Assembly (NCBI RefSeq): GCF_900177795.1
Contig: NZ_FXWJ01000002.1
Location: 744,001-808,000 of the forward strand
Length of the DNA stretch: 64,000 nucleotides
Direction: 5' to 3'
From: Plantibacter elymi (nom. nud.)
GTDB taxonomy: Bacteria > Actinomycetota > Actinomycetes > Actinomycetales > Microbacteriaceae
A program made the translations under genes and the position numbers. The notes under the pieces are model-generated. The model was not told the DNA's origin, made no database searches, and saw only the letters and a list, made by a program, of their open reading frames with translations. Within the stretch, counting starts at the first letter, position 1, and each line of letters starts with the position of its first letter. Shown here piece by piece: positions 4,883 to 19,283 of the stretch.

Positions 4883-4910
4883 ACTCGGCAGCGTGTGACA
4901 ACGTCCTGAG

Positions 4911-5276
4911 TGGAGATGGGGGGAATTGAACCCCCGTCCACTGCTGTGATTCTGCGCCTTCTACGGGCGTATCCCTTGACACGTTCTACTCGGCCCCGAC
5001 CATTGACAAGGGCATCTTGGTCGACGGGCCCAGCCGAAGAAAAGTCCCGGATGACGTCGCGGCTCCGTCATCCAGCAAGTCCCCTAGATGACGCCAGGAT
5101 CCGAGACGGGGACACGCTCGGTCTGACGGACTATCGGGCTCGCTTAAGCAGCGAGGGCGAAGTCAGTGCGCTTAGAGTTGGCACTTGTTGTTTTGCAGAG
5201 ATCGTTAACGAGATAACCCTGCATCCTCGACCCGCTTCTCGCAGTTTCGCAGGCAATGTCGAAACCGATCATCCCC
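4911..5276 (-). ncRNA. ssrA: tmRNA (ssrA)
   Basis: Transfer-messenger RNA for ribosome rescue, about 366 nt, on the minus strand. The 5' end GGGGATGATCGGTTTCGACA and the 3' end (T-loop GGTTCAATTCC, then CATCTCC plus discriminator A) pair as a 7-bp acceptor stem with one G-U. CCA is not encoded. The tag reading frame is 5144-5194: an AAA resume codon followed by codons giving KTTSANSKRTDFALAA and a TAA stop. With the alanine carried by tmRNA itself, the tag would be A-KTTSANSKRTDFALAA, ending in the usual ALAA degradation signal. Its protein partner smpB lies just upstream. Confidence 0.97.
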
Positions 5277-17044: not shown

Positions 17045-18958
17045 TCAGGAGCCGACGACAGCAGCCGACCGTCCGGACGCGACACCCGCGAGCGCGTGAC
17101 CCGCGAGCGACCCGAGGGTCCGGAGCCCGTCGCGCGACAGCACCGACTCGAGGTGCCCCTGGACCGACGCGAACCCGCGACCACGCATCGCGAAGACGTC
17201 GCCGGACGCCGCATCGGCAGCGATCTCGACCCCGCCGACCGGAGCCTCACCCGCCAGCCGTGCGGTGAAGGTGTTGTAGAACCCGATCAACGATTCCTCG
17301 CCGAAGAGGTCGAGGTCGAGCTGCAAACCCTGTCGGGGCGCGTCGAGGCGTTCGATCGGCAGCCCGAGCTGGATCGCCAGCACCTGATGGCTCAGGCAGA
17401 CGGCGAGCAGCGGCGCTCCGGCGGCGAGACGCGCGGATACGATCTCGTGCATCCGACGGACACGCGGATCGGCGAGGTCGAGCGGGTCGCCCGGACCCGG
17501 ACCGGCGACGAGGAGGTCGACGTCCACGAGCGCGTCAGTCACCGCCGACCAGTGCTCCACGCTGACGGTCATCCCGAAGTGGCGCAGCTGGTGGGCGAGC
17601 ATCGCGGTGAACTCGTCCTCGGCGTCGACGATGACCGCGGTACGGCCCGACAGCGAACCGACTGGCGCCGGGTGCTGCGGCTGCAACCAGAAGGACGCCA
17701 ACCGCTCGTTCCGCGCTCGGAGCGCGTCCTGCACTCCGGGTTCCGCCGCGAGGTCGACGGTCGGGCCGAGTTCAGCGGGTGCCATGACGCCGAGCGCGGT
17801 CAACACGCCTGCCGCCTTCGCGGCCGTCTCGGCGACCTCCGACTCGGGGTCCGAGTGACGGACGAGCGTCGCACCGGCGGGAACGCGGACGAGGCCGGTG
17901 TCGTCGACATAGGCGGTACGGATGAGGATCGGTGCGTCGAGTTCGTAGTCGCCGTCGCCCACCGGGGTGAACAGCGCGAGCACGCCGGAGTAGTAGCCGC
18001 GCGCGTTCCGCTCGTGGCGGGCGATGACCGAGCACGCGTTCTGCATGGGCGAGCCGGTGACCGTCGGTGCGAACATCGTCAACCGCAGGACCTCGCGGAC
18101 GTCGAGTTCGCTCGTCCCGGCGAGCAGGTACTCGGTGTGGGTGAGGCGCGACATCTGCTTGACGTAGGGGCCGAGGATGCGTCCACCGGAGGCGCACACC
18201 CGGCTCATCATCTTCATCTCCTCGTCGACGACCATGAAGAGCTCTTCCGTCTCCTTGACGTCGCCGAGGAACGCGCGGAAGTCGTCGCCGGTCGCCCCGG
18301 AGCGCGGGTGGCGGAAGGTGCCGCTGATGGGGTTCATGGTGACGGTGCGTTCACCGGTCGACGCGTCGCGGGCGACCGCGACGTGACGCTCGGGCGTCGC
18401 ACCGGCCATCGAGACGCCCGGCGTGTGCACGGCGAAGGTCCAGTAGGCGCCGGTCTCTCCCGACAGGAGCGCCCGCAACCAGGCGAGGACGGCGCGCTCG
18501 GCCGGCACCTCGGTCGTCGCGGTGAACTCGCGGCGGATGACGAAGTTGGCGCCCTCGCCGCGTCCGATCTCATCCTCGATGACGCGGCGCACGATCGACG
18601 CGTAGTCCTCGTCGGAGACGTCGAACCCGCCGTCGACCAGCGGGACCGCGTCTGCGGGGAGTCGTTCGAGCACCTCGTCGAGGGTCACCGTCTCGCGCTC
18701 GCTCACCACGAGGCAGCGCAGCGGAGCGCCGTCGTCCATCGCCGCGAAGCCGCGCTCGCGCACCTGGCGGTAGGGCACGAGGGTGAGGACCTCGGGTTGG
18801 TGGTCGTCGCCGGTGGATCCGAGCGGGATGTCGGCGAGCGACTCGACGTCGACGACGTCGCCCGTGTAGAGGTCGACGGTGTCGCTGCCGTGTCGGCGGA
18901 GCACCGCGAACGGGAAGTCGGGGCCGGCGTGCAGCACGCGGTGGAGCAGGGTGGTCAT
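17045..18958 (-). CDS. PhzE/TrpEG-type anthranilate (or ADIC) synthase
   Basis: Fused chorismate-utilising enzyme of 637 residues. Residues 1 to about 410 are a TrpE/PhzE-type domain: MAGATPERH, NPISGTFRHPRSG, VDEEMKMMSRVC, FAPTVTGSPMQNA, ILIRTAYVD. Residues about 435-625 are a class I glutamine amidotransferase with the nucleophile Cys in LLAVCLSHQVLAI and the late His-Glu pair in FASVQGHLESVL. Domain order and motifs match PhzE of phenazine pathways, but no other phz gene is present. A Trp-codon leader and attenuator lie upstream, indicating control by tryptophan supply and favouring an anthranilate role. RBS TGAGGA precedes the ATG. Confidence 0.88.
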   Translation of the reverse strand: MTTLLHRVLHAGPDFPFAVLRRHGSDTVDLYTGDVVDVESLADIPLGSTGDDHQPEVLTLVPYRQVRERGFAAMDDGAPLRCLVVSERETVTLDEVLERLPADAVPLVDGGFDVSDEDYASIVRRVIEDEIGRGEGANFVIRREFTATTEVPAERAVLAWLRALLSGETGAYWTFAVHTPGVSMAGATPERHVAVARDASTGERTVTMNPISGTFRHPRSGATGDDFRAFLGDVKETEELFMVVDEEMKMMSRVCASGGRILGPYVKQMSRLTHTEYLLAGTSELDVREVLRLTMFAPTVTGSPMQNACSVIARHERNARGYYSGVLALFTPVGDGDYELDAPILIRTAYVDDTGLVRVPAGATLVRHSDPESEVAETAAKAAGVLTALGVMAPAELGPTVDLAAEPGVQDALRARNERLASFWLQPQHPAPVGSLSGRTAVIVDAEDEFTAMLAHQLRHFGMTVSVEHWSAVTDALVDVDLLVAGPGPGDPLDLADPRVRRMHEIVSARLAAGAPLLAVCLSHQVLAIQLGLPIERLDAPRQGLQLDLDLFGEESLIGFYNTFTARLAGEAPVGGVEIAADAASGDVFAMRGRGFASVQGHLESVLSRDGLRTLGSLAGHALAGVASGRSAAVVGS

Positions 18959-18986: not shown

Positions 18987-19071
18987 GACAGGGCCTCCGA
19001 ACGAGAACGACCGCCCTGTCAGGCGGTCGAGTCGTCGTGTGTGCACGTGCGCGGTCCGCCTAGGAGGCGGG
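18987..19071 (-). promoter_or_regulatory. Tryptophan attenuator (alternative RNA hairpins)
   Basis: Four pairing segments follow the tandem Trp codons. Segment 1 CCGCC is inside the leader reading frame; segment 2 AGGCGG begins at the leader stop (19061-19056); segment 3 CGACCGCC is 19029-19022; segment 4 GGCGGTCG is 19015-19008. 1:2, 2:3 and 3:4 can each pair. Hairpin 3:4 is a perfect 8-bp stem with a 6-nt loop, followed by the U-rich UUCUCGUU, so it looks like a terminator, with 2:3 as antiterminator. A further GACAGGG/CCCTGTC pairing (19020-19014 with 18993-18987) overlaps segment 4. Confidence 0.75.
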
Positions 19072-19101
19072 CCACCAGCTCGTTGCACACGTCGTTCGCA
19101 T
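19060..19101 (-). CDS. trpL: trp leader peptide (MRTTCATSWWPAS)
   Basis: A 13-codon open frame, ATG at 19101 to TAG at 19060, with two adjacent Trp codons (TGGTGG, 19077-19072). It lies directly after a -10 element and before alternative hairpins and the PhzE-like gene. Ribosome stalling at the Trp codons when charged tRNA-Trp is scarce would be the sensor, as in known trp attenuators. Its TATGCT -10 is 7 nt from the ATG, so the leader mRNA is probably leaderless. Confidence 0.8.
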   Translation of the reverse strand: MRTTCATSWWPAS

Positions 19102-19108
19102 GGAGCCG

Positions 19109-19114
19109 AGCATA
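19109..19114 (-). promoter_or_regulatory. -10 element of the trp leader
   Basis: TATGCT on the minus strand, 7 nt before the leader-peptide ATG. The long untranslated stretch between it and the PhzE-like gene is the attenuator. No clear -35. Confidence 0.6.
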
Positions 19115-19201: not shown

Positions 19202-19283
19202 GCGGGAGTGGTGGAATTGGCAGACACGCAGGATTTAGGTTCCTGTGCTTTCGAGCGTGAGGGTTCAAGTCCCTTCTCCCGCA
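19202..19283 (+). tRNA. tRNA-Leu (anticodon TAG)
   Basis: Class II tRNA, 82 nt without CCA. The acceptor stem GCGGGAG pairs with CTCCCGC, discriminator A. The D-arm is TGGTGGAATTGGCAGACA. The anticodon stem CAGGA/TCCTG has the loop TTTAGGT, anticodon TAG, reading CUA. A long variable arm (GCTTTCGAGCGT region) and T-loop GGTTCAAGTCC follow. A TAGACT -10 lies at 19187-19192, 9 bp before the 5' end. Confidence 0.97.

Follow-up and report, generated by a model that had tools for sequence, protein, structure and literature searches.

Upstream of a single fused gene on the minus strand of the window (the whole 64,000-nt stretch of Plantibacter elymi DNA that was analysed) lies a leader region that in all likelihood serves for transcription attenuation of the trp type, mediated by the ribosome. 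The gene that it precedes is, by sequence, the only anthranilate synthase candidate of the genome. The preliminary description had read the region as such an attenuator, and this is very probably right, as conservation and the switch simulated in silico agree with it. The grounds are a short frame, its Trp codons, their spacing, alternative pairings, a terminator-like hairpin, conservation and the simulated switch. From these we infer where transcription of the leader starts, that the leader is translated and that termination at the attenuator responds to tryptophan.

The leader element and its conservation

As shown in Table 1, the 13-codon minus-strand frame with tandem TGG codons, the -10 element 7 nt ahead of its ATG and the four segments able to form 1:2, 2:3 and 3:4 hairpins are present as they had first been described. 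The 3:4 hairpin is, in the letters of the window, a perfect 8-bp stem followed by TTCTCGTT, and the three pairings compete with one another. The 108-nt leader strand is predicted to fold with -57.8 kcal/mol (z = -4.67), and none of 200 shuffles was equally stable.

Table 1. Parts of the leader element and the controlled gene, in coordinates of the window
Feature	Position	Strand	Remarks
-10 promoter element TATGCT	19109..19114	minus	7 nt 5' of the leader ATG (19101)
Leader peptide ORF MRTTCATSWWPAS, 13 codons	19060..19101	minus	ATG at 19101
Tandem Trp codons TGG TGG	19072..19077	minus	putative sensor
Leader stop TAG	19062-19060	minus	overlaps segment 2a
Segment 1a GUGUGCA	19084..19090	minus	pairs with 2b, lower part of the 1:2 domain; predicted fold
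Segment 1b CCGCCT	19065..19070	minus	codons of PAS; partner is segment 2a
Segment 2a AGGCGG	19056..19061	minus	partner is 1b (protector) or segment 3 (antiterminator)
Segment 2b UGCACAC	19039..19045	minus	within the spacer between segments 2 and 3; predicted fold
Segment 3 CGACCGCC	19022..19029	minus	5' arm of the putative terminator
Segment 4 GGCGGTCG	19008..19015	minus	3' arm of the putative terminator
Terminator tail TTCTCGTT	19000..19007	minus	5/8 T, modest U tract
Controlled gene, 637-aa fused anthranilate synthase candidate	17045..18958	minus	chorismate-binding and class-I glutamine amidotransferase domains

No Rfam family, Trp_leader included, matched the leader at gathering level, and the three RNA matches of the window fall elsewhere. 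The best match at the leader was a full-length, sub-threshold one to RcsR1 (RF02552; 25.2 bits versus a gathering score of 60; 19004-19086, minus strand), which we take to be the trp leader RNA of Sinorhizobium; the likeness may reflect convergent design. The window also carries a tRNA gene (19202-19283, plus strand), the divergent neighbour of the promoter of the attenuated gene, and a tmRNA gene (4908-5276, minus strand).

In order to follow the leader through relatives, 104 loci (L004-L107) were compared, made up of 80 of 298 confirmed relatives and 24 loci from genomes of the family; the loci are not independent, because some genomes are present in both collections. A leader with adjacent Trp codons (WW leader) was found upstream in 102 of the 104 loci with the gene. 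One exception is L020, where the contig ends 124 nt upstream and which was left out of the 188-region count below; the other is L104 (genome G027, 1.4 Mb), in which a fused gene without WW leader occurs without a canonical TrpE match. At L103 (genome G148) the leader is intact, the fused gene has an early in-frame stop and a canonical TrpE is also encoded in the genome. The fused protein is 98%, 99% and 91% identical to three Plantibacter records, and the leader-to-gene stretch of L004 is identical to that of the window.

In the class as a whole, the fused gene was found in 147 of 394 genomes at the threshold used. The sample drawn from these is partial, with 85 further loci (25 returned by the search and 60 fetched). 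With the start rule applied, 156 of 189 gene copies have a WW leader, one of which (L188) was judged spurious. Of 188 copies, 149 have a short ORF with WW in the sense direction within 350 nt upstream; the reverse strand gave 4 and shuffled sequence 2. A chance ORF or chance hairpin is ruled out by the shuffle controls for WW ORF, terminator and fold stability. The short stretch TGGTGGCCNGCN used alone as a genome query gave 33 matches versus 57 with the reversed control and was uninformative.

A TAnnnT box precedes the leader start by 5-8 nt in 139 of 144 unique leaders under a start rule that is blind to the box, and in all 144 when the rule favours it, with 1.6% in shuffles; an SD-like motif was found in none of the 144. 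This spacing of the -10 box and the lack of an SD motif indicate that the leader is very probably a leaderless mRNA, with its transcription start at or near the A of the ATG. Both features match the pattern reported for leaderless promoters of S. lividans (PMC8079986). The suggestion that the leader mRNA is leaderless thus stands, whereas its supposed novelty does not, as trpL1 of S. lividans is a precedent (PMC8079986).

Two other Trp leaders were observed. Outside the window, in the same genome, MNFNRSAWWWLR lies upstream of the second tryptophanyl-tRNA synthetase gene (L221:1304, plus strand, G000:C7). A TAGTAT box precedes the ATG of this leader by 7 nt, and alternative pairings GGCTGC/GCAGCC are seen by eye; a trpS attenuator is reported for S. 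lividans (PMC8079986). The leader MHMTTAWWPTFSVG (L244, position 1501 on the reverse complement, genome G089) precedes a gene for a 249-aa methyltransferase-like protein and shares the architecture with a changed core, CCCACC/GGTGGG; no fused gene was found in G089 at E 1e-60.

Alternative pairings and the predicted switch

A putative intrinsic terminator with a U tract, modest in the window, precedes the structural gene. A terminator score of at least 20 was obtained for 121 of 134 unique leader regions and for 3.2% of dinucleotide shuffles, the script detecting no terminator in 8 of the 134, and U tracts are weak at several loci. Together with the WW leader counts given above, this documents in relatives the conservation of Trp codons and pairings whose absence, by the preliminary description, would have refuted it. 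The same hairpins bear on two other readings. Leader translation might alter access to the start site of the gene, by sequestration or reinitiation, and leave termination unaffected; the gene start lies 101 nt past the leader stop in the window type, and actinobacterial leader peptides without obvious terminators are described (PMC1262725). We consider such translational control improbable, since a strong hairpin with a T-containing tail stands well ahead of the gene start in those 121 regions. Attenuation that depends on Rho or on pausing, in which the hairpin would serve as a pause or processing signal, would suit the weak U tracts, but stem and T-containing tail are kept far above the shuffle level, and this reading deserves even less credence.

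The antiterminator duplex had a mean of -12.9 kcal/mol, compared with -8.8 kcal/mol for shuffled upstream segments (123 regions). Counted from the start of the WW codons, GGCGG of segment 2 begins at a distance of 17-20 nt in 110 of the 111 loci scored, namely those in which all three cores were recognised; the script skipped 23 of 134 for a changed core, the choice of another hairpin or an undetected terminator, among other reasons. The position flanking the core in the three segments reads T, A, T in 52 of the 111 loci and C, G, C in 19, the latter being Streptomyces-like genomes (recognised by a leader like that of trpL1) and further families outside the Micrococcales. At the other 40 loci, to which the window belongs, segment 2 is unable to pair at this position. 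In a 33-row alignment of the Micrococcales type, the outer terminator pair is AU in 23 rows, CG in 9 and unpaired in 1. Double changes in the 1:2 and 2:3 cores were sought in the same alignment and none was found, the cores being nearly invariant. Support for these two cores thus consists of conservation, fixed spacing and one flanking position that varies by clade. Covariation of the pairing segments, which the preliminary description had proposed as a check, was seen for the outer pair of the terminator (AU/CG) and not for the 1:2 and 2:3 cores.

Leader RNA or peptide acting mainly in trans, as S. meliloti peTrpL is reported to do (PMC7298713), is the most remote of the readings: the WWPAS peptide end is common among leaders and the sub-threshold RcsR1 match points the same way, but PAS is accounted for by RNA segment 1b, and segment 2 keeps its place at loci with different codons after WW.

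For transcription attenuation by a translating ribosome, we envisage the following course. RNA polymerase would start at or beside the leader AUG, as the -10 box suggests, and a ribosome would be loaded on the 5'-terminal AUG and translate the 13-codon leader. When charged tRNA-Trp is scarce, the ribosome would stall at UGG-UGG, covering 1b and leaving 2a exposed past its leading edge; the exposed 2a would then join segment 3 ahead of the synthesis of segment 4, no terminator would form, and the fused gene would be transcribed. With ample tryptophan, the ribosome would reach the UAG overlapping 2a and mask segment 2, permitting the 3:4 terminator. If the ribosome is absent, 1:2 would form and termination would be the default.

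This course was followed in partition-function runs, in which a ribosome was represented by a blocked footprint that reached 15 nt upstream of the A-site codon and, counted from the first base of this codon, 12 nt onwards. The means refer to 120 of the 134 regions, 14 having been removed by script filters. Before segment 4 is made, the simulated mean probability of 2:3 was 0.94 with a stall at the first Trp codon, 0.91 at the second, 0.03 at the stop codon and 0.24 in the ribosome-free state; the simulated values for L004 were 0.999, 0.999, 0.0 and 0.0, respectively. A scan of stall positions over the 120 regions revealed a peak at codons -1 to +1 about the first Trp codon, with a mean antiterminator probability of 0.89-0.94; the maximum fell on the first Trp codon itself, and the value three codons later was 0.09. 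Once segment 4 has been made, equilibrium favours the terminator whatever the state, with a mean P(3:4) of 0.84 and 0.92 for the stalled ribosome. Hence, the switch must be kinetic, with 2:3 forming first, and kinetic folding is the usual assumption for attenuators. In the model, therefore, the pairings are mutually exclusive and the Trp codons are so placed that a stall would select the antiterminator, albeit only kinetically.

A further pairing is predicted between the first codons of the leader and the spacer that separates segment 2 from segment 3. Over 120 regions, leader nt 1-15 formed duplexes with the spacer of -12.2 kcal/mol on average, as against -7.3 kcal/mol for the 15-nt stretch just ahead of the start, -9.0 for the stretch of equal length ahead of that one and -9.5 for permuted spacers, the lowest of 200 permutations giving -10.0. 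They outpaired the adjacent promoter stretch in 108 of the 120 and the next stretch in 97. With shuffled spacers, 74 of 120 leaders ranked 2 or better of 50, and the window type had rank 3 (3 of 50 shuffles pair as well). The pairing is kept while its sequence differs by group (TGTTCGCGAAC/TTTCGCGAACC, TGTACGCGAC/TTCGCGTACC and TGTTTGCAAT/TTTGCAAACC). In alignment A2, uncorrected for kinship, 4 of 6 pairs show a double change, with 81.3% of cells paired, a covariation of 0.172 and 10 doubly changed cells; a control slid by -2 was not clean, with 60.6% paired, a covariation of 0.162 and 14 doubly changed cells. On two of the five shuffle measures, 22 and 26 of the 500 shuffles attained the observed value. 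Given the control and the shuffle results, a helix 1a:2b between the 5' end of the leader and the spacer is graded as likely to exist, not as proven. The start codon is predicted to take part in it to a varying degree (of 103 unique leaders, 77 have nt 3 paired and 33 have nt 2 paired), and in the predicted fold of the window's own leader the helix stops short of it.

It is conceivable, though we hold it doubtful, that 1a:2b is kept for its pairing, excludes the antiterminator and serves as a timing gate tied to leaderless initiation; the gate role is speculative. A ribosome that arrived after about 60 nt of RNA had been synthesised would then be too late, the transcript being locked into termination. 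The helix is described nowhere in the literature searched, among the matches listed, the 1998 paper on the S. venezuelae attenuator lying outside that scope. It offers a possible test of ribosome loading on leaderless messages in an attenuator.

The downstream fused gene and its family

The 637-aa product matches Pfam PF00425 and PF00117, and its closest PDB sequence is PhzE (3r74, 556 bits). The preliminary description was correct in calling the gene fused and PhzE-like, and misleading in setting it apart from a classical trpE. The genome has three chorismate-binding enzymes, one above the PabB cut-off, one above the isochorismate synthase cut-off and the fused gene. With E 1e-100 as the limit, neither this genome nor three more of the genus yielded a canonical TrpE. 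Since the other two enzymes pass cut-offs for other functions and canonical TrpE was not found, the fused gene is left as the sole candidate for an anthranilate synthase. The genome has trpD and trpA, as well as IGPS, a PALP-family protein at the TrpB position and the Trp-associated membrane protein near HisG. The motif LLES, which we take to be a TrpE motif of tryptophan feedback, is absent from the 637-aa protein.

Among 199 genomes of the family, the fused gene occurs in 24 and canonical TrpE in 176. Canonical TrpE is absent from 11 of the 24 genomes with the fused gene versus 12 of the 175 without it (Fisher p = 4e-6, uncorrected for kinship and with three genomes assigned by elimination), and 13 of the 24 have both. 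No WW ORF was found within 450 nt upstream of canonical trpE in the 20 regions examined of 176 (the 4 best-scoring and 16 selected ones, 11 of the latter from genomes that carry both genes), so that in family genomes the leader goes with the fused gene. A covariance model of the leaders gave 24 matches of at least 39 bits in the 199 genomes, and all but one of these lie at fused loci, covering 23 of the 24; as leaders of this kind had served to build the model, close relatives match it by construction. Matches below 39 bits were left uncounted, 70 of the 199 genomes having some match at E 0.01; among these are L246 (38.5 bits), without a WW ORF, and L247 (34.3 bits), with one about 950 nt away.

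PhzE, the ADIC synthase of phenazine clusters, belongs to the same fused two-domain family. In a 108-row tree, the leader label changes 4 times, compared with a shuffled mean of 29.3. The tree, with a midpoint root only, separates a window group of 47 rows, 46 with leader, from a group of 61 rows, which holds both the Streptomyces-like leader copies and PhzE-type copies, the latter without leader. Leader-bearing copies are not one clade, which argues against a simple claim of orthology. Burkholderia PhzE sits among copies without WW leader, with support of 88 and 93, not starred. The neighbours of four leader-lacking copies (6 proteins scanned) include PhzF-/PhzG-like proteins, an isochorismatase, a class-II DAHP synthase and an O-methyltransferase, in one case each. 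Some leader-lacking copies thus lie beside phz-type genes. In 10 genomes from which 2-3 copies of the fused family were fetched, exactly one fetched copy bears a leader in 8 and none in 2.

In the window, the fused gene is flanked by genes for a YjeF_N protein and a VTT-domain protein and by a tRNA gene, with no phz genes among these neighbours. A role as a phenazine gene is disfavoured there by the neighbours, the gene content of the genome and the distribution of leaders, the tree alone being indecisive. The Trp leader may mark those members of the PhzE/TrpEG family that serve tryptophan synthesis as opposed to phenazine-type pathways. Protein sequence is said not to separate the two, nor an ADIC from an anthranilate product (PMC5958127).

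Comparison with known attenuators

Escherichia coli trpL follows the logic of segments 1-4 with tandem Trp codons. The window leader shares both, differing in that it has no Shine-Dalgarno site and, as we infer, no 5' untranslated region. Lin, Paradkar and Vining reportedly found a trp attenuator on an S. venezuelae anthranilate synthase gene in 1998, and that gene is probably the one of the fused enzyme of Ashenafi 2015. The S. venezuelae anthranilate synthase is described as a fused monomer (PMC5897657). Classical trp attenuators are reported for Corynebacterium and Streptomyces in PMC1262725, which also cites experiments in S. venezuelae. The Corynebacterium attenuators share with the window a Trp-codon leader and a terminator/antiterminator pair, but they precede the trp operon, whereas that of the window precedes a single fused gene.

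The nearest likeness, along with the S. venezuelae attenuator, is to trpL1 of S. lividans, which PMC8079986 reports to be leaderless, to have two hairpins and a uridine-enriched stretch and to stand upstream of a monocistronic trpE. A Trp-codon leader peptide, hairpins, a uridine-enriched stretch and a monocistronic anthranilate synthase gene are thus shared, as is a leaderless leader ORF, which for the window is predicted from the -10 spacing and SD absence. Leaders MFAHSTQNWWWTAHPAAH (L155, L197), one residue from the trpL1 peptide MFAHSTRNWWWTAHPAAH, also precede genes of the fused family, so that Streptomyces-like loci share a fused TrpEG/PhzE-family gene downstream. The kind of element is therefore already known from Streptomyces, and control of a fused enzyme is not the novelty that it had been taken for. 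Differences remain. S. lividans trpL1 has three Trp codons and the window leader two; in the window the stop codon overlaps with segment 2; beside the 2:3 core the window lacks a pair (A faces A), unlike the C-G of Streptomyces-like loci; and its genome has no candidate for an anthranilate synthase other than the fused gene. The tree does not place the Streptomyces-like and window groups in one clade apart from PhzE.

The spread to Micrococcales-type genomes was absent from the literature searched, among the matches listed. Searches for PhzE with leader-peptide attenuation and for tryptophan leader attenuation in Microbacterium gave no match, and those for leader-peptide attenuation in Micrococcales nothing on the topic among the matches listed. 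Collectively, our results extend a Streptomyces-type control element to genomes of Microbacterium, Plantibacter, Rathayibacter, Cellulomonas and Arthrobacter, tie it to one gene family and point to lineages in which the fused enzyme is, by prediction, attenuated and no canonical TrpE was found.
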